A stretch of DNA of 64,000 nucleotides from Luteibacter sp. 9135 (GTDB lineage Bacteria; Pseudomonadota; Gammaproteobacteria; Xanthomonadales; Rhodanobacteraceae), in the NCBI RefSeq assembly GCF_000745005.1, contig NZ_JQNB01000001.1:1729501-1793500 (forward strand). Reading direction: 5' to 3'. Below, one piece after another: positions 2,338-33,787 of the stretch. The notes beneath the pieces are model-generated. The model was given only the letters and a program-made list of their open reading frames with translations, ran no database searches and was not told the DNA's origin. The position numbers and the translations under genes were made by a program. How positions within the stretch are numbered: the stretch's first letter is position 1; each line of letters opens with the position of its first letter.

Positions 2338-3837
2338 TCAGATTGCAAAAGGAGGAACGAGCAGCATGCCGCTTTCCGCATCGGGACTATCGAGGACGAG
2401 GCCGAGCATGCGTAGCTGGCGACCAAGATCGCTGTCGTTCAGACCATGAAGGTCAAATTCGATTCCGTACGATGCAAGGTGAGCAGCCAGCCTCTGAACC
2501 GATCGCGGTCCATTTACTTCATGTAGGCAGCAGTGAGCCATGGCGAGGACGGAAGCGGGGCCAAGGGCAAGAATCCACGGCGCGCTGCGAGAGCTTCCGC
2601 GTTTTTTCAAGAAGTAGCCCTGATCGTATCCGCGGAGCGTCTCATCCATTGTCTGACGTTGTCCGAGGGTGTACTGCGCGAACTCCATCAGATTCGCGCC
2701 GACGCCTTTTCTGCAGGTAATCGTACGAACTTCGCGATCGTGCACTTTGTGGTACGCCGCGATCAACCCAGAACCGGATAGTCGCGCGGCGTTCTGCAAC
2801 ACAGATGATAGGAGAGCACGAACCCCCTCTATCGACTCGATCTTCCCGACCTTGATACCCATGTCGGCAAGTGACCAAAGCGTCATGTTTATACCCAGAC
2901 GGGCCGCCAGATACTTAGAGGAGTAATCTCTTAGCATCGGTATGGCAGGATGCCCGAATGAGAGCATCCGCTTCTTTACCGTGAACACCTGTTCGATCAC
3001 TTCGTGTTGCGAGACTGCCACGTTAGAGAGGCTGCCTTCGACGACCGCCCGGATGATCTTCCAAATCCTATCGTTCACATCGCAGAGCCAGAGCATGTGG
3101 CTTACCGAGCCTATCCGGAGGACAGACTCCAATAAACTAATCCACTGACGCCGCGTCATTGCGGACTTTGCGCTAATAATTCCGTCTAGGTCCGCGACAA
3201 ACTGCTTCGCAGGATAGTTGAAGCTCGATCGATCAGCGGGGGGGAATGCACCGAGGTGCGGTAGGTTTGTGGCGCTCCAGCTGATGTCGCCGTTGCGCCG
3301 ACCCTTGAACTCTTCCTCGAGCCAGCAGGCCCAAACGTCATCGTTCTCGCCGACGCTAAGCGCGTCGTGCAGGCGCCGCCATACATCCGTTGCCGCGTCG
3401 TCAGATGGCGCGCCCATTTGAATCATTCGTTTGACAAGCTGGCCAGGATTCCACGGGCTTCCCGCAAGTCTGGCAGCTCCGGAGTAGAGCGCGACGTCGG
3501 GAACGACTGGCGACAGTGACATGAAGCGCTTCGAAGATTGCTGCGCGACTTTCGGGCTCTGAACTAATCTATCGAGGACGGTACGCCATGTGTCGGGTTG
3601 TATTGAACCGTCGTTTGTCGCCTTCTTGCGTGCCTTGTCGGCAGCCTTGCCAAGCTCGTCTCCCTGACTCTTGACCCTGTTCTCGGCGATCCCGGCGAAA
3701 CCGGAGGCGCGGTATAAGGAAGAGAGAAGTACCTCGCCGGTCGAGAACTCAGGGGCCGGGCGAATGTTGAAAACGGAATCCTCGAACGCCTCATGCGACT
3801 TTTTCCACGGGCTTGCCAAAAAATCGTCAATAAGCAT
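2338..3837 (-). CDS. Unrecognised 499-aa protein, second gene of the putative defence operon
   Basis: I chose ATG 3837 because the previous gene stops as TGATG, so stop and start share one base and translation is almost certainly coupled; a TTG one codon upstream is also open. The protein begins LIDDFLASPWKKSHEAFED and appears soluble and mostly helical, with no signal peptide or membrane segment. The C-terminal ~100 residues contain LALGPASVLAMAHCC and then a winged-helix-like stretch ending LLVPPFAI. No enzyme motif was found. Its place between a P-loop ATPase and a very large protein, with 0-13 bp spacing, makes it a dedicated subunit of the same system. The DptG-like position is suggested only by order and size. 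I do not recognise a family with confidence. Confidence 0.85.
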   Translation of the reverse strand: MLIDDFLASPWKKSHEAFEDSVFNIRPAPEFSTGEVLLSSLYRASGFAGIAENRVKSQGDELGKAADKARKKATNDGSIQPDTWRTVLDRLVQSPKVAQQSSKRFMSLSPVVPDVALYSGAARLAGSPWNPGQLVKRMIQMGAPSDDAATDVWRRLHDALSVGENDDVWACWLEEEFKGRRNGDISWSATNLPHLGAFPPADRSSFNYPAKQFVADLDGIISAKSAMTRRQWISLLESVLRIGSVSHMLWLCDVNDRIWKIIRAVVEGSLSNVAVSQHEVIEQVFTVKKRMLSFGHPAIPMLRDYSSKYLAARLGINMTLWSLADMGIKVGKIESIEGVRALLSSVLQNAARLSGSGLIAAYHKVHDREVRTITCRKGVGANLMEFAQYTLGQRQTMDETLRGYDQGYFLKKRGSSRSAPWILALGPASVLAMAHCCLHEVNGPRSVQRLAAHLASYGIEFDLHGLNDSDLGRQLRMLGLVLDSPDAESGMLLVPPFAI

Positions 3838-5912
3838 CAAGCTTTCTCCACCTGCACCAGGAACCTGCCGAAGTTTCTGACGATTACATCGTCCCTAATG
3901 CCCAGGCGGATCTCGCTCTCGTCGAGTGCCTGCTCGTCTCGCACCACCGAGCCGGCCAGCTTTGCCCTAGTTGTATCAAGCAGGGCGACCACGGAGCGGG
4001 GGAGCGAGGCGGGTACCATCCCCCTCCGGAGCGACTTCGTCGCTTTGAAGAGTTCGTAGGTCAAGGCGACCGACTGGTTCGCGCCGCCGGAGCCGACGCT
4101 CAGGAATCTAACTGGTGACCGGGGCCTCTTTCCTTCGGACGGCGCGGGCATTGCGCGAACCTTCTGAATGTCTGTTATCAGCATCACGCGCCGCTCGGGT
4201 GGCGGAAGCGGCTCACCGAAAGTCGTGTTCAGACTTACAAGAAAACGCCGGTTCTTGTTAAGGAGCCCTTCCACTTGTTTTGCTGCGACTTGCAGGGCCG
4301 CGATGCCGCCTTTGAGGATTTGATTGAACTCATCCAGTGCATCCGAGTCTTTGGTGACGCCCGACCGTACTCCTATTGAACGGCGAGCGATTCTGCAAGC
4401 TATGAGCCTGATAAAGGCTTGTACACGTTCCGCCACGGCTGGCTTCCGGCGGCGAACTGACTCATCCGACAGGAGTTCATCTGCTTCTTCAAGAGCTTTC
4501 AGCAGATCAAGCTCGATTATCGATAAGCACTGATACTTAATGAGGTAGGTCCTTGCCTCCTTGACGGAGAGGCTGAAGCGCCTATCCAGCTCTTCAAACT
4601 TGATGGTGGTGCTAGCGCTGACCGCTACATCGAGCGTTGGGCTCGCGAACGCAGGATCGAGATAGCCGCTCATGCCCGCCAACTGAGACCGCAGGGTATT
4701 CGTTGACTCTTTACGCTTGTCTAGGGCGAGAAATTGTTGAAGGCCCGCAAGCGTCGGTTGTGAATCAAGCTTCAGTTCTTTCAGGTCAGCCTTCAGTGCG
4801 GATGACTTCTCGACTGGCCACGCGTTGAACATCGCATGTTGATATTGAGCCGTGACGAGCCTGAACATTCCCCTGGTGCGCTTGATGGCAGCCTTAGCGG
4901 GGTCGCGGTCCTTCGGGTTCAGTTGAGCCGAAGCCCAGTTGCAAGGCTGATAGCCCGTCGACGAGTTTGTCTCAGTGGTGCCCGCGAGAAGGAAGGCCGC
5001 TAGCGAAAATAAGTCACGGAAGTTCCAACGCTTACCGCTAGCCAATTCGAACCAACGTAACGTCTGAATGTACGACGACCGCTGGGTTTCCAGCGATAGC
5101 AATTTGCGATTAGTGCAGAAAGGACAGCGTTCACCCGCGGCGCACGACCCAAAGCTTGGCCAGTCACTCTCGGTGGTTGCGGCCGAAAGTATCTGGCGTG
5201 CAGCGGAGGGAGAGCCGTCGACTTCGTCCACCAAAGATTCCATATCCATGGGCCAAATTGCAAACTGCGGAAACGAATCAAGAGGCCAGCAGTCGAGGCT
5301 TCTGGCATTTAGCGAGGTCGACTGCACTACTTGCTTGATCAATCGGGCAACTTCGTCATCCCCGCGCTCTGTTGCAAGGATGAGTGCATCGTCGAGTACG
5401 CCACGGTTAACGCATGCCATGTAAACGTGGCCTTCTGGTCCTTGTAGTAGCCGCTCGATATCCCGGCAAAGGTGATCTGCCGGGGTGGCGACGTCATCAA
5501 GGTCGCCCTCTGACCCGTCTTGAACAATTGCAATCTCGGAAATGCGGCTGAGCTCGGGAAAGGTCGTAACTCTGCTACGGACGAGCCGTCCCGGCGGCCC
5601 AGCTTCCCCCGAGTACCGAGCGGCAAACTCCGCCTCGAGCGAACCGCCGAGCTGCATCGAGTTATCGAGCTCTCGTATCGTGTACTCGATTGCTTCTGTC
5701 TTGCCATTACCCGGCCCGCCAATCAAAAAGATGGCTCTGGGCGTATCCTGCGCACCATCAGCAATTTCTCGCGTCCAGCCGAGCAGCCTCTCTAGCAGGC
5801 GCGTGTTGATCACGCTTCCTGATGGACGTCCGCTGCCCTTATAGAAGAGCTTCTTTACTCCGCCCGACTTGTCTCCTGACCAGTCGAGCAATCCCTCAGG
5901 ATACTTATTCAT
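3837..5912 (-). CDS. P-loop ATPase, first gene of the putative defence operon
   Basis: This 691-aa protein carries a clear Walker A motif, GGPGNGKT at residues 65-72, after the hydrophobic strand AIFLI, as in AAA+/STAND-type NTPases. A little after the ATPase core is a cysteine cluster, CAAGERCPFC, that could bind zinc. The C-terminal third is helical with many charged residues. ATG 5912 is supported by a strong GAGGGGGGAG ribosome site just upstream. It leads a three-gene operon with one-base and 13-bp junctions, so it probably supplies ATP-driven sensing or remodelling for the two downstream proteins. The upstream ~1 kb has no gene and then an IS3 remnant, and codon use is visibly less GC-biased than in the right half of the window, all consistent with a transferred defence cassette. 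Whether it is a DptF homologue cannot be decided from sequence alone. Confidence 0.88.
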   Translation of the reverse strand: MNKYPEGLLDWSGDKSGGVKKLFYKGSGRPSGSVINTRLLERLLGWTREIADGAQDTPRAIFLIGGPGNGKTEAIEYTIRELDNSMQLGGSLEAEFAARYSGEAGPPGRLVRSRVTTFPELSRISEIAIVQDGSEGDLDDVATPADHLCRDIERLLQGPEGHVYMACVNRGVLDDALILATERGDDEVARLIKQVVQSTSLNARSLDCWPLDSFPQFAIWPMDMESLVDEVDGSPSAARQILSAATTESDWPSFGSCAAGERCPFCTNRKLLSLETQRSSYIQTLRWFELASGKRWNFRDLFSLAAFLLAGTTETNSSTGYQPCNWASAQLNPKDRDPAKAAIKRTRGMFRLVTAQYQHAMFNAWPVEKSSALKADLKELKLDSQPTLAGLQQFLALDKRKESTNTLRSQLAGMSGYLDPAFASPTLDVAVSASTTIKFEELDRRFSLSVKEARTYLIKYQCLSIIELDLLKALEEADELLSDESVRRRKPAVAERVQAFIRLIACRIARRSIGVRSGVTKDSDALDEFNQILKGGIAALQVAAKQVEGLLNKNRRFLVSLNTTFGEPLPPPERRVMLITDIQKVRAMPAPSEGKRPRSPVRFLSVGSGGANQSVALTYELFKATKSLRRGMVPASLPRSVVALLDTTRAKLAGSVVRDEQALDESEIRLGIRDDVIVRNFGRFLVQVEKA

Positions 5913-6896
5913 CGCTCCCCCCCTCGCCCGCGGAATATGTGTAAGTCCGTTACTTTCGAAGAAATTTTTTGGTGCCGTGATCGATTTCGACTTTGCTGTC
6001 GAGAGAAAAAGTATTCATGAGGTGTGATGAGTGCGATGCATGCGTGAGGCGCAGAAGATTGGGATCGCCTTCTCTTCAGTTCAGCCGCAAGTGAGGGCTC
6101 CGTCGGTCGCTGCACCACCGGATTCGACGACCGGCGTCCGCTCCACGGCCCTCACGGCGCTGCCCCGAACATCGATCGTCCGTCTGGTCGCGCGCCACAG
6201 ATCGCGGCAGTCTGATACCCAGATCGGCAGAGATCCTTTTGGCGACACTTCTTGCAATTTGTTCGCGCTGCTCCACACCACCAGACACTCCCTTCTGTTG
6301 AGAAGTATCGCAACATTTAAAGGCGTAGCAATAGTCTGGCGACGTTCTTCGGCCGACATTCTCAAATAATGATCTAGATCAGACCTCTAGTCGTACTCAC
6401 GGAAGCCTTAGCACGTCCCCGTTTGATGTGGCGAGACGTGAGTTGAGCACGCCGGAACGTCACATCTTTGCTTGAGCTGAAGCGCGTGGGTTTCCGCCGC
6501 CGCGTCGACATTTCGACGCTCCAGTATTGCTGCGCAGGTGAAAATTCCTTTGTTTTCGCCGGCTCGACCTCCCACCAGGAGGGACACAGAAAAGCCCCTA
6601 GCTGCGACGCCTTAAATGCCTAAAAAAGTTCTACGTAAATTTGGCATGAATTCCAAAAACGGAAGCCTCTGACGACTTGATGCCGCATCTGAAGGACCGT
6701 CGTGTTTCGGCGACGGGGTTTACCGACGCTGTGGTGCGCTGAGCTTTATGTCACCGACGCCTTCGAGTAACGAGGAGGTTGTCGCCCGCTAGAGGCGGGG
6801 CGGTAGCCGCGATGAATTACTGCACTCGGTTGCGTTGCCCGTTTTGAAACTTGGCCGGCGATCTCGCGCGCGCGGGCGCGGTGCGTTGCCATGCTA
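5913..6896. other. Gene-poor stretch upstream of the putative defence operon
   Basis: About 1 kb separates the ATPase gene from the IS remnant. Only short overlapping frames occur (for example 6031-6369 plus and 6081-6365 minus), with no convincing ribosome site or recognisable protein. Bases 6371-6380 form the palindrome GATCTAGATC, and 6785-6799 form a small CCCGC-TAGAG-GCGGG hairpin. The operon promoter must lie near 5925-6000 on the minus strand, but I cannot pick out a convincing -35/-10 pair. Confidence 0.5.
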
Positions 6897-27975: not shown

Positions 27976-28393
27976 GTCGCCTGCGCCGGGTTCCACACGC
28001 ACCGCAGGCGACCACCGCATCAAGCGGTGAAGCGCGGCCCAAGGGTGCTACCAACACCCCTGGACCGCTGACCATAGCCAACTAAACGAGAGTTGATCAT
28101 GGCTAACACCGATCATACGGTACTCGCTCGCCCGCCGAATCCCCCCGGCGACACCCCCACCGGTTACCGGGCGGTCTGCATCCCTCGCAGATACGGTTGA
28201 AGAACCGCGGCGCCTGCCGTCGGAGTTGAGATTTTTCCCTGCCGAATCACGCGGCACGTTGTTGCGTGAGCGGCAGAAAGGCGAGCGCCGCTACACACGT
28301 CGTCAATCACACCGTCCGGCGCCCGGCCACGGGCAGCCGTGAACCCGCGAATCCGCATGATCCGCGGCACACCGCGTTCCCACGGTGTGCCGC
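27976..28393 (+). other. Hairpin-rich intergenic stretch
   Basis: Four strong inverted repeats occur within 420 bases. They are: 27976-28012, a 10-bp stem; 28034-28068, a 14-position stem with two mismatches and loop CTACCAA; 28239-28276, nested CTGCCG/CGGCAG and CACGC/GCGTG; and 28364-28393, a perfect 11-bp stem GCGGCACACCG-N8-CGGTGTGCCGC, 37 bases before the next start codon. None has a clean T-run. Together they suggest structured RNA, either an untranslated leader for the gene at 28431 or one or more small RNAs. No known RNA family is recognised. Confidence 0.5.
28099..28200 (+). CDS. Possible 33-aa small ORF
   Basis: ATG 28099 is preceded by AACGAGAG and reads 33 codons to TGA at 28198-28200. 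The predicted peptide begins MANTDHTVLARPPNPP and is proline- and arginine-rich with one cysteine. It sits between two strong hairpins upstream of the 101-aa gene and could be a leader peptide. The start MA with ARP nearby faintly recalls the 22-aa leaders found before the Mrr-like genes, though the spacing differs. Evidence for translation is weak. Confidence 0.3.
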   Translation: MANTDHTVLARPPNPPGDTPTGYRAVCIPRRYG

Positions 28394-28737: not shown

Positions 28738-29634
28738 TTAGTTCGACCCCAGTTCCGGCGTCGTCTTCTCCAGGATCTTCATCGCCTTTGCGTTCTCCGC
28801 CTGCCATGCCGAGAGCTCGGCTTTGGTGGTTGGCGTCGATCCCGTAGCCCGGGGGTTACCATCGGTCGTGGTGATGGGTGCGTGCGCGTTGGCGGTGTTG
28901 CTCGCATTCCTTGCGGCATAAGGCGCCGGTGCTACCGCGTGCGACGCGTAGTAATCGGAGTAGGGCGCTGCGGGGCATGCCTGAACGTCGCGCGCATTCG
29001 CCCGGGCGTTAGCCGCGTTCTGCGAGTTCGCGCGGAGGATTTCGACGGACATGTTGCTGAACACGTGCGGGATATAAAAGCAGAAGATCAACACCATCGC
29101 GGCGAAAGCCACAAGTCTGGCGGCAATGGACTTCGCCGAGGCCGGATGCCTCCTTCGCCGGTGGCGCCTTTCCACCACCCAACTGGGCATCTCGTCCCGG
29201 GCCGAGGAATAGGGCATATCCATCTCCGGGATCGGACCCAGCATGGCGCGGATCTCGGCGCCGCCGATCAGCTGGATCGGCATGTACTTCTCCGCCGAGC
29301 GCATCGCATGATTGGTGAACTCACCGGACGATATAAGGACGGCGCGCTGTGCACCCTGGGTATGCATGACGCCGATCAATTCGTGCACGGCGTTATGCGG
29401 CACCTGACCGGTGTTCCAGTGCTTGCACTGCACCACGGTGTACTCGCCGCCGCGGAACAGCTTGAGGTCGATGCCGCCGTCGCTCATCCCCAGCGTGGCC
29501 CCGGTGCCGGTGTGCTCCACGCGGTAGCCTTGCCCGCGGTAGTACTCCGCCACACGGTGCTCGAAGTCGTCCCAACCCACCCGGGTAAGCGAATCGTCCC
29601 ACCGTGAGCGCACGGGCTTCCAGCGGTTACCCAT
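28738..29634 (-). CDS. Membrane-anchored Mrr-like restriction endonuclease domain protein (copy A)
   Basis: ATG 29634 gives 298 aa; the stop of a 22-codon leader ORF lies inside its first three codons. Residues ~15-140 form an Mrr-type PD-(D/E)xK fold: WDDFEHRVAEYYRGQGYRVEHTG, catalytic D56 in GGIDLKL, and Q69-x-K71 in VVQCKHW. VLISSGEFTNHAM and a strand before IPIQLIGG-type core complete the domain. A basic stretch and one membrane helix follow (~175-197, LVAFAAMVLIFCFYIPHVF), then an Ala/Asn/Thr-rich tail probably in the periplasm. Mrr-fold proteins cleave modified or foreign DNA; membrane-anchored versions are common and poorly understood. All three catalytic positions are intact here, unlike in copy B (32980-33609). 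Confidence 0.87.
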   Translation of the reverse strand: MGNRWKPVRSRWDDSLTRVGWDDFEHRVAEYYRGQGYRVEHTGTGATLGMSDGGIDLKLFRGGEYTVVQCKHWNTGQVPHNAVHELIGVMHTQGAQRAVLISSGEFTNHAMRSAEKYMPIQLIGGAEIRAMLGPIPEMDMPYSSARDEMPSWVVERRHRRRRHPASAKSIAARLVAFAAMVLIFCFYIPHVFSNMSVEILRANSQNAANARANARDVQACPAAPYSDYYASHAVAPAPYAARNASNTANAHAPITTTDGNPRATGSTPTTKAELSAWQAENAKAMKILEKTTPELGSN

Positions 29635-29695
29635 GACTGATCGCCGGGCACGCCGCACAGGCCGGGCGCATCTGCGCCGATACGATCGAAGCCAT
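29627..29695 (-). CDS. 22-aa leader peptide before Mrr-like copy A
   Basis: ATG 29695 has AAGGGG five bases upstream and reads 22 codons to TAA at 29627-29629. Those bases also lie in codons 2-3 of the nuclease gene (ATG GGT AAC), so the frames overlap by eight bases. The peptide starts MASIVSAQMRP and contains two cysteines. The leader before Mrr copy B has exactly the same length, and M1, A2, S6, A7, R10 and P11 are identical. The nuclease start itself lacks a good ribosome site, so translation probably depends on ribosomes finishing this leader. Confidence 0.65.
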   Translation of the reverse strand: MASIVSAQMRPACAACPAISHG

Positions 29696-29755
29696 GTGTT
29701 CCCCTTGATACGCGGTGTGCGGGTTCCGCAGGGATGAGCCGAGCGGTGAAGAATG

Positions 29756-29783
29756 ATTCTACGTGCACTGTCGAAACTCACAA
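29756..29783 (-). promoter_or_regulatory. Predicted promoter of leader A / Mrr-like copy A
   Basis: On the minus strand, TTGTGA (29783-29778) and TAGAAT (29761-29756) are separated by 16 bp, a reasonable sigma-70 pair. The expected start, near 29749, would leave a ~54-base leader before ATG 29695. GTGCAC occurs in the spacer (29763-29768) and twice more, 12 bp apart, at 29817-29822 and 29829-29834, possible regulator contacts. Confidence 0.45.
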
Positions 29784-29871
29784 TCGTCTTGTGCGTGCGT
29801 TTACGGCAGGCAGTGGGTGCACGTTCTCGTGCACTTATGGTGCGCCCGGAGGCTGATCAACTGGCTACAGT

Positions 29872-29957
29872 ATCTATTCACATGCTGACCTATCGATGAT
29901 TTAAGTTACTGAATATAAATATATTTGACGAAATAAATCTATTCATGTATCTATTCA
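29872..29957 (+). promoter_or_regulatory. Promoter/operator region of the HipA-like gene with three ATCTATTCA repeats
   Basis: ATCTATTCA occurs three times, at 29872-29880, 29937-29945 and 29949-29957, in a strikingly AT-rich island. TTGACG at 29925-29930 followed by 17 bp places a -10 over the last copy (TATCTA, 29948-29953). Transcription would then start at or next to ATG 29961, which has no Shine-Dalgarno sequence, so the message may be leaderless. The gene's own N-terminal HTH is the natural candidate to bind the repeats. Confidence 0.5.
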
Positions 29958-29960
29958 TTC

Positions 29961-31328
29961 ATGCCTGCATCTGCTATCGCTGATCGACTCCTGACTATTC
30001 TCCGTAAGGAGGGTGCAACTACCGCTCGCGAGTTAGGTCGGATTCTCGGGCTAAGCCAGCCCACGGTGTCTCGAGCCCTCACTTCGGTATCCGAGCACGT
30101 GGTTCGCGTTGGGCGTGCCCGACAGACTCGATACGCAGCGGTTCGCAATGTCCGCGGCCTCGGCTCCCAGTGGCCGCTTTTTCGCATCGATCAAGAGGGG
30201 CGTCCTCATTCGTTCGGTAAACTGACAACGCTATATGGGGCGGGTAGCTTGTTGTCCGGTGTGTCTTGTCCCTGGCTGAGAGACGAGTTTGCCGCAGGCC
30301 TGTTTCCTGGCGTCCCCTGGTTCCTTGATGACCAGCGACCGCAGGGCTTTCTGGGTCGCCAATTCGCTCAGCAATGGCATCGTGAGCTGGGATTGCATCA
30401 GGACGTCCTGCTTTGGAACGACGATGCCGTGCTCACGGCGCTTCTGCTGCGTGGAGAGGATGGGCCCGGCAACTTCGTGCTCGATGACGATGCGCTCGAA
30501 CGGGCTTTGCAAGCCAAGCCAAACGCGCTTCCGGAAAATACCCGTGCGTTGCGCTATGGGGAGATGGCAGAAGCTGCGCTGGCGGGAGATGTCGTCGGAT
30601 CATCGGCAGCCGGCGAACAACCCAAATTCACCGCGTCCGTCATCGACGCCGCAGGCCATATCCGACACGTCATCGTGAAATTCAGCGAGCCTGTCGACAG
30701 TGGCCCCATGGCGCGTCGCTGGGCGGATCTCCTGATCTGCGAACACCTGGCAGGCAACGTGCTGTCTGAACACGGCCATGCAAGCGCGCCAAGCGAGCTG
30801 GTCGAGTCGCAGGGCAGGGTATGCCTTGAGGTCACACGCTTTGATCGCATGGGCGCGTACGGACGTCGCGGCTGCGTAAGCCTGGCGGCATGGAGTGATG
30901 CGCATGACGGCATCCGTGACGATTGGGCTGCTGCGGCCACGCGTATGCATGGTGGTAACTGGATCGACGAGTTTGCGTTGGACCAGGCGCGGCAGCGATG
31001 GTGGTTCGGGCGCATGATCGGCAACACCGACATGCACTTCGGCAACCTGTCGTTCTTCCTCGATGACAGCCTTCCACTCACGTTGACGCCCAGTTACGAC
31101 ATGCTGCCAATGCTCTACAAGCCCGCCGCAAACGGCGCCATTCCCGTGCGTAACTACACGCCTGCCACGCCATCCCCGCGTGATATGGCCTATTGGCATC
31201 GTGCCGCGATCTGGGCCGAACTGTACTGGGCACGGGTGGCCCAGCATGCGGGCGTGAGTGACGCCTTCCGGCGCATCGCAGATGCAAACGGTGCCGCGGT
31301 GCGTGCAGCCATCGAGCGGTTCGCCTGA
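29961..31328 (+). CDS. HipA-family kinase with N-terminal winged HTH (YjjJ/HipH-like)
   Basis: This 455-aa protein has a winged-helix/HTH at ~4-60 (ATTARELGRILGLSQPTVSRAL) fused to a HipA kinase fold. Seen in order: GSSAAGEQPKF (ATP loop), VIVKFSEP (ATP-binding Lys), a central helical region, the catalytic loop IGNTDMHFGNLSF near residue 355, and SYDMLPM. This is the one-protein arrangement of E. coli YjjJ (HipH), in which DNA binding and kinase are on one chain instead of a HipB-HipA pair. HipA kinases phosphorylate aminoacyl-tRNA synthetases and slow growth; the target here is unknown. No separate antitoxin gene is adjacent. Repeats in the promoter suggest autoregulation. It diverges from the Mrr-like copy A unit, and GC at its 5' end is low. 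Confidence 0.88.
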   Translation: MPASAIADRLLTILRKEGATTARELGRILGLSQPTVSRALTSVSEHVVRVGRARQTRYAAVRNVRGLGSQWPLFRIDQEGRPHSFGKLTTLYGAGSLLSGVSCPWLRDEFAAGLFPGVPWFLDDQRPQGFLGRQFAQQWHRELGLHQDVLLWNDDAVLTALLLRGEDGPGNFVLDDDALERALQAKPNALPENTRALRYGEMAEAALAGDVVGSSAAGEQPKFTASVIDAAGHIRHVIVKFSEPVDSGPMARRWADLLICEHLAGNVLSEHGHASAPSELVESQGRVCLEVTRFDRMGAYGRRGCVSLAAWSDAHDGIRDDWAAAATRMHGGNWIDEFALDQARQRWWFGRMIGNTDMHFGNLSFFLDDSLPLTLTPSYDMLPMLYKPAANGAIPVRNYTPATPSPRDMAYWHRAAIWAELYWARVAQHAGVSDAFRRIADANGAAVRAAIERFA

Positions 31329-31338
31329 CGCGGTACCG

Positions 31339-31800
31339 TCAACCGCCAGGCAACTGCATCAACTCCAACGTGATTTTGTCCGGCCCCGACACATACACCA
31401 CCCGCGTCCCTTGCCTCGGCCCACCGGGAATCGCCTGAGGACTCCCTTTGACCATCCACCCCGCCGCCTCGATACGCGCGATCGCCGCATGTATGTCACG
31501 CACCGCCAGTGCCAGGTGCACGGCACCGATGGCCCCCGCACTTTCCGGCGCCGAACCATGGCGAGCACCCTGCGAGTACGCCAGCAGCTCGACCATGTAA
31601 CCACCCGGTGCCCTGACGATAGCCGTGCGCACGAGAGGGTCATCGACGCCTGTGACCTGATGCAGGAACGTGCCGCCCATCTCCGACTGGCGCTCGAGCG
31701 TGAAACCGAGGGCCTCTGTCCAGAAGCGTATGGCGTCGTCCAGCGATGACACGACGAAGCCCGTATGGTCGACGGCGATAACGCCTGCGTTGGTGTCCAC
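31339..31800 (-). CDS. VOC-family (glyoxalase/bleomycin-resistance fold) protein
   Basis: The 153-aa protein has the paired beta-alpha-beta-beta-beta units of the VOC superfamily: AVDHTGFVVSSLDDAIRFWTEALGF (residues ~9-33) and VHLALAVRDIHAAIARIEAAGW (~93-114). Candidate metal ligands are H12, the Glu of YMVELLAYS, H94 and the Glu of KITLELMQL, the usual His/Glu set. The full set suggests an active metalloenzyme, lyase or dioxygenase type, not merely a binding protein. Substrate is unknown. It converges on the HipA-like gene (10-bp gap) and diverges from the beta-barrel gene at 31923. Confidence 0.85.
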   Translation of the reverse strand: MDTNAGVIAVDHTGFVVSSLDDAIRFWTEALGFTLERQSEMGGTFLHQVTGVDDPLVRTAIVRAPGGYMVELLAYSQGARHGSAPESAGAIGAVHLALAVRDIHAAIARIEAAGWMVKGSPQAIPGGPRQGTRVVYVSGPDKITLELMQLPGG

Positions 31801-31922
31801 GGCGAATTTTTCCCAGCTGCGATGACGAAGATCGTAGCAGCACTCGTTTCCCGCCCTTCACTTCGTCGATAATTGCCGCCTGCATCGGCGCTACTGCCCA
31901 GGCATTCAGTGGAAAAAAACGA

Positions 31923-32975
31923 ATGAACCGTACTCACCGTCCCGCAGGGACCGGCTCCCCGCGGCTTTGCCAGGCGCTGCTGGCCGCCAGCCTATGCGTC
32001 TCCCTGTCACCCGCGTTCGCGCAGGATGCCTCGGGGGCGCCGCTCTCCGGCGATATCCACGCCAACCTGCCCGGCGCACTGGCCGATGATGGCCGCTACC
32101 AGCGCGAGGCGATCAACCAGCACCTGATCACGCAGTACGCCGACCAGACCGAAGACGCCGTGGCCACGTGGGCATCGGCGTGGGGCCATCGCGGCCACCA
32201 CGACGAGGACGGCAGCGCGGCCAGGCTGGACACCAAGGGCAGCGGCGTGATGGTGGGGGCCGACATGGGCGTGGGGGCACAGTCGCGTCTCGGTGTTGCG
32301 CTGGGCGGCGGTCGTGTCTCCGCGGATACGCGTGACGAGTCGGCCAGTGGCCGCTCGCTGACCGCCGCGATCTACGGCGGCGGCCAGTACGGCAACGTGC
32401 TGATCCAGGCGGGTGGGCTGTACACGCGCTACGACGTCGATACGCATCGCACGGTGGTGGACCTGGGTACGCTGGCCGCCCGGCTGGCAGGCAGCATGAA
32501 GAGCCAGGCGTTGCAGGGTTTCGTCGAGGCGGCCTATGAGTTTCGCTGGGATACCGGCGGGCTGGCGCCGTTCCTCAGCCTGGCGCAGCAGCAGTTGCGC
32601 ACGGGCTCGGTGAACGAGCGCGGCGGCGTGGCGGCGTTGCATGTGATGAGCGACAAGAGCGACGTGACCTACGGCACGCTGGGCCTGCGCGGCCGCAAGG
32701 ACTTCGGCGAGGATGGTCGCTTCGGGATATTCGGCAGCGTGGGTTGGCAGCATGCCGCGGGCGATACGCAGCCCGCCAGTCGCCAGCGCGTCATCGCGGG
32801 CGGCACCACCATCGAGTCGCTGGGTACACCCATCGCGGAGAACGCCGGCGTCGGCGTGGCGGGCATCCGCTTCCTGGCCACGCCCACGGTGACCGTGGAT
32901 GCGTCGTGGAACGGTCAGTTCGCCAGTGCGGCGAAGGACCAGTCGGCGCGCCTTGCGCTCAACTGGGTGTTCTGA
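31923..32975 (+). CDS. Autotransporter-type outer-membrane beta-barrel without passenger (copy A)
   Basis: The 350-aa protein has a signal peptide (to ~residue 34, SPAFAQ) and then runs almost straight into a barrel resembling autotransporter beta-domains: WASAWGHRGHHDEDGSAARLDTKGSGVMVGADMG, repeated G-x-G strands, SKSDVTYGTLGLRGRKDF-like strands, and a terminal LALNWVF ending in phenylalanine, as outer-membrane barrels do. An autotransporter would normally have a long passenger; here only ~45 residues precede the barrel. It therefore probably works as a stand-alone outer-membrane protein or is a remnant. A paralogue lies at 35214-36248. It converges on the Mrr-like copy B gene (4-bp gap). 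Confidence 0.82.
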   Translation: MNRTHRPAGTGSPRLCQALLAASLCVSLSPAFAQDASGAPLSGDIHANLPGALADDGRYQREAINQHLITQYADQTEDAVATWASAWGHRGHHDEDGSAARLDTKGSGVMVGADMGVGAQSRLGVALGGGRVSADTRDESASGRSLTAAIYGGGQYGNVLIQAGGLYTRYDVDTHRTVVDLGTLAARLAGSMKSQALQGFVEAAYEFRWDTGGLAPFLSLAQQQLRTGSVNERGGVAALHVMSDKSDVTYGTLGLRGRKDFGEDGRFGIFGSVGWQHAAGDTQPASRQRVIAGGTTIESLGTPIAENAGVGVAGIRFLATPTVTVDASWNGQFASAAKDQSARLALNWVF

Positions 32976-32979
32976 CCGC

Positions 32980-33609
32980 TCAGGGCATCGCCACCGTCGC
33001 CGCATGCGTGGCGGTGGCCTGCATCGACTGCATCTGGGCGCGCTGGATCTCGTGGATGTACACGCCGTACATCACGCACAGCATCAGGCCCATGACGATC
33101 ACCGCGCCCACGGCGGCGACCATGGGCGCACGGCTGCGCAGGTGATCCGCGTCCTCGGCCCAGGGCGGCACGCCACCCGGCAGCAGCACGGGCAGGGGCG
33201 GTTCGGGCACCTTGCCCAGGATGGCGCGGATGCGCATGCCATCGATCAGCGTGACGTGGGGCAGGCGTTCGGCGAACTCCACGGCCGAGCGGCTGAACTC
33301 GCCGGAGGTGATGGCGATGACCTGGCTGGCACCGGTGGCCGGCATGGCGTTGACCAGCTGGCGAACGTCCTGGTGCGGCACCTGCTGGGCGACCCAGTGA
33401 CGGCACTGGACGATGATGGAAGTGGCGCCGCGCGTGAGGGTCAGGTCCATGGCGTCTTCCGCGCGGTGGCGGCCGGCGCGACCGCCGGTGTGCTCCACCA
33501 CGTAGCCCTGCTCACGGTAGTGCGTGGCCACCAGGCGCCCGAACTCGTCCCACGGGATGCGTGTCAGCGCGTCGTCATGCCGAAAACGCACAGGCTTGGT
33601 GAACCTCAT
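32980..33609 (-). CDS. Membrane-anchored Mrr-like domain protein (copy B), catalytic Lys replaced by Arg
   Basis: This 209-aa protein is a shorter paralogue of the protein at 28738-29634. It shares WDEFGRLVATHYREQGYVVEHTG, the strand around D55 (AMDLTL) and VQCRHW, where Q68 is kept but the catalytic lysine is R70. The GG before the aspartate is also changed to AM. ISGEF-type ITSGEFSRSAVEF and a membrane helix (~165-190, VAAVGAVIVMGLMLCVMYGVYI) follow, with only a short tail. Cleavage activity is therefore doubtful, and it may bind DNA or regulate copy A. ATG 33609 overlaps the stop of a 22-codon leader ORF (ATGA). Confidence 0.83.
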   Translation of the reverse strand: MRFTKPVRFRHDDALTRIPWDEFGRLVATHYREQGYVVEHTGGRAGRHRAEDAMDLTLTRGATSIIVQCRHWVAQQVPHQDVRQLVNAMPATGASQVIAITSGEFSRSAVEFAERLPHVTLIDGMRIRAILGKVPEPPLPVLLPGGVPPWAEDADHLRSRAPMVAAVGAVIVMGLMLCVMYGVYIHEIQRAQMQSMQATATHAATVAMP

Positions 33610-33674
33610 CGCCGGTCTCCCGGGAGGTCACGCAGCAAGGAAGGGCGCACGTGGGCGCTGTACGGGACTGCCAT
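33606..33674 (-). CDS. 22-aa leader peptide before Mrr-like copy B
   Basis: ATG 33674 has GAGGGA seven bases upstream and reads 22 codons to TGA at 33606-33608, overlapping the nuclease ATG as ATGA. The peptide starts MAVPYSAHVRP; M1, A2, S6, A7, R10 and P11 match the leader before copy A, and both leaders are exactly 22 residues. Their C-terminal halves differ completely. Conservation of length, position, first-half pattern and stop/start overlap across two diverged paralogues argues for a real coupled leader. Confidence 0.65.
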   Translation of the reverse strand: MAVPYSAHVRPSLLRDLPGDRR

Positions 33675-33732
33675 GGTGCTTTCCCTCGTCCGAGCGTTGC
33701 GCACCCCCTTGGCACGTCGCTGGACGGTGTGG

Positions 33733-33787
33733 AATATAGCGGGTTGTTGCAGGAATTCCTGTAGGCGAACCCCTACATTTGTAGGCG
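33733..33787. promoter_or_regulatory. Palindrome CAGGAATTCCTG with flanking direct repeats
   Basis: In the 183-bp gap between leader B (minus) and the LprI-domain gene (plus) are a perfect 12-bp palindrome, CAGGAATTCCTG (33750-33761), and two GTAGGCG repeats exactly 20 bp apart (33761-33767 and 33781-33787). A minus-strand TATATT (33738-33733) would put the palindrome at the -35 position for leader B. This looks like a regulator-binding region; the regulator is unknown. Confidence 0.4.

Follow-up and report, generated by a model that had tools for sequence, protein, structure and literature searches.

Short upstream reading frames of drifting peptide sequence overlap the starts of Mrr-like membrane nuclease genes in Luteibacter and probably deliver ribosomes to them

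The window analyzed here, a stretch of 64,000 nucleotides (nt) of the Luteibacter sp. 9135 genome (contig NZ_JQNB01000001.1, positions 1,729,501 to 1,793,500), carries on its reverse strand two genes for Mrr-like proteins with a hydrophobic segment (Mrr-TM; nuclease A and protein B). Each is preceded by a short open reading frame (ORF), the leader, which ends on the start of the gene (Table 1). Leader A overlaps the nuclease ATG at 29634 by 8 nt, and the TGA of leader B forms a 4-nt ATGA overlap with the start of gene B. An earlier sequence-only reading had described these two 22-codon ORFs, their overlaps, their ribosome sites, and the residues M1, A2, S6, A7, R10, and P11 common to both peptides, all of which we found in place, and had proposed that a conserved leader peptide gates the translation of a potentially toxic DNase. 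Comparison with relatives supports coupling of the leader to Mrr-like genes; gating by the peptide found no support.

Both proteins match the Mrr_cat domain. Nuclease A has a single hydrophobic segment near residues 170-188 (hydropathy peak 2.39), a linker, and, at its C terminus, a tail (AMKILEKTTPEL) found again in many relatives; its aligned motif GGID...QCKHW is intact, D...QxK being what we take to be the intact Mrr catalytic motif. Protein B reads QCRHW, has one hydrophobic segment (peak 2.45), and ends without the tail. That both members of the pair are nucleases is not confirmed, because the K-to-R change in QxK and the missing conserved tail make the activity of B doubtful. The tail pattern, W..xNA..M.ILEKTTP.L, lies past the membrane segment, and divergent paralogues such as G000D have a similar ending. 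Seven Luteibacter proteins of two B-type lineages carry at least one motif change (G000B, G143B, G112B, G149B, and the partial sequences G147B, G157B, and G033B, of 68-70 codons), and B-type proteins are possible pseudo-enzymes. G149A, which is not B-type, has D changed to E. Among the B-type proteins, with B itself, L060, L061, and L063 as examples, the changes are K to R, D to N, and Q to T. No B-type protein known at full length has the tail, and most B-type genes keep the leader.

The earlier claim that neither nuclease has a good ribosome site of its own holds for A, with a computed Shine-Dalgarno (SD) energy of -2.1 kcal/mol before its start, and not for B, whose SD-like site is stronger than that of its leader. 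We scanned the window for intergenic upstream ORFs (uORFs) with an ATG start, 4-45 codons, an SD of -6 kcal/mol or better, and an overlap of 1-8 nt between their stop and the next start. Among 42 genes called by a crude rule of G+C at third codon positions, only A and B had such a uORF; a third match lay inside another gene.

Table 1. Leaders, genes, and predicted signals at the two loci (window positions)
Feature	Position	Strand	Details
Leader ORF A	29627..29695	-	22 codons, MASIVSAQMRPACAACPAISHG; stop TAA within the nuclease A start region
Leader ORF B	33606..33674	-	22 codons, MAVPYSAHVRPSLLRDLPGDRR; stop TGA
Nuclease A, 298 amino acids	28738..29634	-	Mrr_cat PF04471, E=3.8e-25, 88.7 bits (cut-off 21)
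Protein B, 209 amino acids	32980..33609	-	Mrr_cat PF04471, E=8e-21, 74.7 bits (cut-off 21)
SD of leader A (AAGGGGA)	29700..29706	-	Sequence; duplex energy -7.4 kcal/mol
SD of leader B (GAGGGA)	33682..33687	-	Sequence; duplex energy -6.4 kcal/mol
SD-like GGGAG of nuclease B, within the last codons of leader B	33617..33621	-	-7.4 kcal/mol
Leader A hairpin GGCGC-AGAT-GCGCC, 5 pairs	29665..29678	-	Forms in a 23-nt piece folded alone
Leader B hairpin GCGC-CCACGT-GCGC, 4 pairs	33645..33658	-	Also in the minimum-free-energy fold of a longer piece, not in its centroid
-10-like TATATT upstream of leader B	33733..33738	-	Alignment; spacing common to many relatives
Promoter-like TTGTGA-16-TAGAAT upstream of leader A	29756..29783	-	1 found, 0.9 expected: weak
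Inverted repeat (TGTAGG-N6-CCTACA) upstream of the -10-like/promoter site of leader B	33760..33777	.	Alignment, genome scan

At least one Mrr-like match was present in all 23 genomes of the genus examined; scanning the genome contigs with a single protein gave no match, and scanning them with an alignment found the relatives. The group counted, delimited on a tree that has weak nodes, comprises 27 genes of 19 of the 23 Luteibacter genomes. A common rule (ATG or GTG start, SD of -5.5 kcal/mol or better, 4-45 codons, overlap of 1-8 nt with the candidate nuclease start) found a leader before 26 of the 27 group genes, as against 3 of 46 homologues of other genera and, among the remaining Luteibacter paralogues, 1 of 23. 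The 46, which also served in the initiation-site comparisons, are what remains of 50 non-Luteibacter homologues after the distant L155-L158, with unaligned starts, were left out, and they include near-copies such as L115 and L122. Most of them begin directly at a strong SD. The group counts exclude G153, which lies outside the smallest tree fork with all 27 genes and has an 18-codon ORF with a 22-nt overlap and a strong nuclease SD, as well as G057 from Dokdonella, whose leader has 28 codons and overlaps by 10 nt; 11 Luteibacter loci on named contigs, with leaders identical to those of genes already counted, were not added. The Mrr-TM relative of Dokdonella fugitiva (L022/L152) has an SD-bearing 28-codon ORF overlapping its start by 10 nt, an arrangement possibly of independent origin.

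The overlap is 4 nt in 25 of the 27 group genes, 8 nt in window copy A (G000A), and absent in G149B. Copy A is an exceptional member, its leader stopping in another frame, because its start-to-start distance of 61 nt breaks the pattern of the other 25 of the 26 distances, all of which equal 2 modulo 3. When spacers were resampled, overlaps of 1-8 nt were expected in 6.3 of 27 genes and reached at most 17 in 200,000 sets, against 26 observed; this null takes no account of common descent and covers just the 27 genes that have a leader, among them G153.

The length of the leader is not kept. Group leaders have 4, 8, 10, 12, 16, 17, 21, 22, 23, or 24 codons, and six sister pairs, two of them at nodes with bootstrap below 95, differ in codon number while keeping the overlap (G000A 22/G143A 10, G155 16/G156 8, G147A 24/G112A 21, G157A 21/G149A 22, G112B 23/G157B 22, and G000B 22/G143B 21; for G156 and G148B the common rule picks a longer in-frame start). 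Nor is the peptide. Over five non-overlapping pairs with leaders of equal length (G076/G101, G089A/G154A, G033A/G149A, G157A/G112A, and G148B/G133), chosen among the 22 pairs with the most similar nucleases, which share sequences, the mean proportions of nonsynonymous (pN) and synonymous (pS) differences were 0.32 and 0.29 in the leader and 0.08 and 0.42 in the first 125 nuclease codons. Since leader pN about equals pS, no clear purifying selection on the leader peptide is seen, and we rejected peptide conservation. The residues shared by A and B do not mark a conserved peptide either, Ser6 being encoded by TCG in leader A and AGC in leader B. A leader of about 22 codons reading MA...SA..RP before every homologue, as first envisaged, is thus contradicted in both length and peptide.

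On the whole, initiation signals favor the leader. Leader SD energies range from -5.7 to -11.4 kcal/mol (median -7.7, n=27, G153 included), as against a median of -4.8 at the nuclease starts (Mann-Whitney P about 1e-5). By a best-start rule, the SD is -5.1 kcal/mol for Luteibacter nucleases and -9.3 for those of other genera (45 of 46 with a start). The median cost of opening the site is 8.8 kcal/mol at the leader versus 12.7 at the nuclease (paired Wilcoxon P=1.3e-4, n=26); when windows of equal size are used, these medians become 9.2 and 13.1, with 10.8 at direct starts elsewhere, from which the nuclease sites differ (P=0.003). These results support coupling, because the leader is common in the group and rare outside it, its overlap is kept despite the changes in length, and its signals are on the whole the stronger ones.

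Most leaders also contain a predicted hairpin. In a gapless alignment of the first 39 nt of 21 leaders, 79.4% of cells in a helix of columns 16-21 and 26-31 are paired, versus 33-56% when one side is slid, and five of the six helix pairs show changes on both sides. Of 500 shuffles, 8 equalled the covariation score, a test that related sequences without structure can also pass. The arms read, for example, GACGCT/GGCGTC in G148B and GGTGCC/GGCACC in G147B and G157B, with G-U pairs in G112A, G112B, and G133; in G076/G101 one arm is shifted, and in leader A the 3' arm is aligned with the family hairpin and the 5' arm shifted by 2 nt. The hairpin has moderate covariation support, and the residues shared in MA...SA..RP (S6-A7...R10) appear to trace largely to its arms. 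Around the leaders, no Rfam model scored as high as its gathering threshold. We claim no large riboswitch-like fold, because folding of the whole leader region was no stronger than that of shuffles (z -0.63 for B, +1.21 for A).

We trained a covariance model on 17 leaders, B among them, and scored with it 150 of 3,642-6,146 first-look candidates in each of the 23 genomes. Within these candidates it gave 19 matches at E < 0.001, all at the Mrr-TM family, including leader B (E=5.8e-6); matches away from the family began at E=0.0025 and then 0.003. Copy A, although trained on, scored only E=0.019, behind off-family matches. Three of the 19 lay outside the training set: G076, which is near-identical to G101, G033A, and an unused leader of 21 codons with ATGA and arms GACGCC/GGCGTC before a broken gene copy in G152. 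Within the candidates scored, a mobile, MIRU-like dispersed element was rejected on the same 19 matches.

Taken together, each short ORF is probably a translationally coupled, peptide-neutral uORF that delivers ribosomes to the Mrr-TM gene. Ribosomes would load on the leader's own SD and translate its 4-24 codons, the identity of which would hardly matter, and their passage would unfold the structured nuclease start. They would then terminate on that start (ATGA, GTGA, or TTGA; 8 nt inside the gene in copy A), and reinitiation there would yield the Mrr-TM protein. In most members a hairpin starts at leader nucleotide 16, near the edge of an initiating ribosome, and may modulate this process, perhaps by slowing its first step, or stabilize or protect the mRNA. 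With a freely drifting peptide and an ending locked onto the gene start, the tiny frame would resemble a landing strip from which ribosomes pass to the gene. Among overlapping gene pairs tested elsewhere, 13 of 14 were strictly coupled (PMC6728339).

Several observations weigh against this interpretation. Overlap alone is no proof of coupling, because the PvuII C and R genes overlap and are translated independently (PMC2997769). Within the group, G149B has an SD directly before the nuclease ATG and no leader. The smallest tree fork that holds all 27 genes has 30 rows, was drawn open, and is weakly supported; counted over it, the leader is present in 26 of 30, the further leaderless rows being G000C, a G152 paralogue (both on long, flagged branches), and G034 from another genus. 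Some group nucleases have a fair SD of their own (-7.4 kcal/mol in window B, others down to -9.9). In openness, the leader sites do not differ significantly from direct starts elsewhere (P=0.057), and coding sequence is generally more structured than untranslated regions, which may explain part of the accessibility gap. As for the hairpin, its outermost pair does not form in 10 of 21 leaders, 84 of 500 shuffles equalled the score for further pair types, and a slide of +2 gave six pairs changed on both sides, compared with five for the hairpin itself. By eye it is missing in 7 of 26 leaders (G010, G033B, G148A, and four of 4-12 codons) and only partial in G155 and G033A, and in a longer piece around leader A other pairings win and it does not form, which counts against its importance there. 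Finally, in the close trio G150/G089A/G154A, leader pS (0.24-0.36) exceeds pN (0.16-0.21) by 1.5-2.3 fold, on few changes.

The pS excess of this trio would suit a leader that encodes a functional or arrest peptide and acts as an attenuator, gating the production of a toxic DNase. So would the prevalence of A or E at residue 2 and the repeated occurrence of a G/S-A...R pattern, and a precedent is the Escherichia coli toiL-topAI toxin operon, described as lying under a stall-sensing uORF (PMC12121999). The recurring residues, however, coincide with the hairpin arms, the Ser6 codons of A and B are non-homologous, only Met1 is common to all leaders, which span 4-24 codons, and pN about equals pS, with three nonsynonymous and no synonymous changes between G076 and G101. 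We consider a functional peptide very unlikely, the least probable of the alternatives. Nearly as improbable is that the conserved unit is the hairpin or inverted repeat, as a site for an RNA or DNA regulator, the ORF merely keeping ribosomes moving. The compensatory and G-U changes and the confinement of the strong covariance matches to the family would fit such a unit, but the seven leaders without a hairpin by eye (4-12 and 17 codons, G010, G033B) keep the overlap, and G-U pairs and double compensations suit an RNA better than a DNA operator.

The leaders could instead be incidental, that is, untranslated ORFs arising from stop-poor, GC-rich sequence and an ATGA-type start common to the family. 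An A follows the candidate start codon in 19 of 46 non-Luteibacter homologues, for most genes an overlapping stop has a chance of 0.2-0.3, and the counts are not independent, the homologues sharing ancestry. Against this, an SD-bearing uORF was found in only three of those 46, the stronger SD in Luteibacter stands on the whole before the leader and not the nuclease, and the overlap outlasts repeated changes in length. We regard an incidental origin as unlikely, if slightly less so than the other two.

Ribosome delivery by a peptide-neutral leader remains our preferred reading. Protection from a toxic DNase is undemonstrated and weakened, because six of the seven B-type genes with an altered motif keep the leader, all but G149B; it is further strained by that leaderless gene and by the direct starts from a strong SD in most homologues of other genera. 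A bolder proposal, which we hold to be doubtful, is that leader and hairpin form a dedicated RNA control element, in which the hairpin would set the flow of ribosomes to the nuclease and may sense a factor or ribosome stress. The peptide would then be free to drift, the element evolving as a "codeless" uORF, and B-type proteins with altered catalytic motifs, subject to that control too, may temper the active ones.

Upstream of leader B, the -10-like TATATT had no match in a consensus promoter scan. The TGTAGG-N6-CCTACA repeat looks like the operator of some regulator: 16 sites in the genome fit with at most one mismatch, five of them exactly, versus five for a reversed control pattern. Copies at 509087, 825961, 2904948, and 4216496 of G000:C1 stand near unrelated genes, one adjoining what we take to be a PII-like gene. 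An operator of the Mrr-TM family was rejected, since copies lie near unrelated genes and, by eye, the repeat stands before leader B and not A. Divergent from leader A is a HipA-family YjjJ-type gene (29961-31328, forward strand; NCBIfam PRK09775, E=8.9e-146). Close to nuclease A, positions 28031-28104 of the reverse strand match the Rfam SymR antitoxin below its gathering score (42.2 versus 61 bits, E=1.3e-5), adjoining a short forward-strand ORF (28093-28200), possibly a decayed SymE/SymR-type locus.

Conservation of bacterial uORFs is commonly sought through conservation of the peptide. In the present group it is the architecture that is kept (SD, overlap, mostly frame, and often hairpin) and not the peptide, and peptide-based searches would miss it. 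The 26 natural leader variants offer a test set for effects of length, overlap, and hairpin on the efficiency of termination-reinitiation. Among the open-access titles listed in our literature searches, none dealt with leaders of Mrr-type genes or of Luteibacter. What is new here, judged by comparative sequence analysis, is a gene-family-wide and apparently peptide-neutral uORF with a hairpin inside most copies.

Its components resemble several known systems. As in the PvuII C/R system, an ORF overlaps the start of a restriction-type nuclease gene with predicted hairpins nearby; there, however, the upstream reading frame codes for a regulator protein, and the two genes proved translationally independent when tested, which calls for caution here (PMC2997769). 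As in mok-hok (PMC11228461), where the hok SD is structurally inaccessible, and in the axe-txe minigene (PMC8708949), a small upstream ORF would raise translation of the gene that follows. Those ORFs serve toxin genes, whereas the Mrr-TM proteins are at most putative toxins. Ribosome-delivering uORFs are a recognized kind, and mycobacterial MIRU ORFs couple at a spacing of -4 nt (PMC12548453); handing a ribosome to the next gene would likewise be the sole role of the Mrr-TM leader, but MIRUs are dispersed and apparently mobile, in contrast to a leader whose strong matches, among the candidates scored, lie only at its family. Like integron ORF-11 at attI1, the leader is a short ORF that carries an SD of its own and would feed the next gene through termination. 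The gene served by ORF-11 lacks a good initiation region, as would fit the group medians here, though gene B has a fair SD of its own; in ORF-11, amino-acid substitutions had a slight effect and changes of the SD or start codon a large one (PMC8876359). ORF-11 is, however, part of an integration site and serves any inserted cassette, whereas the Mrr-TM leader is passed on together with a single gene family, in most cases with a 4-nt overlap and usually with a hairpin.

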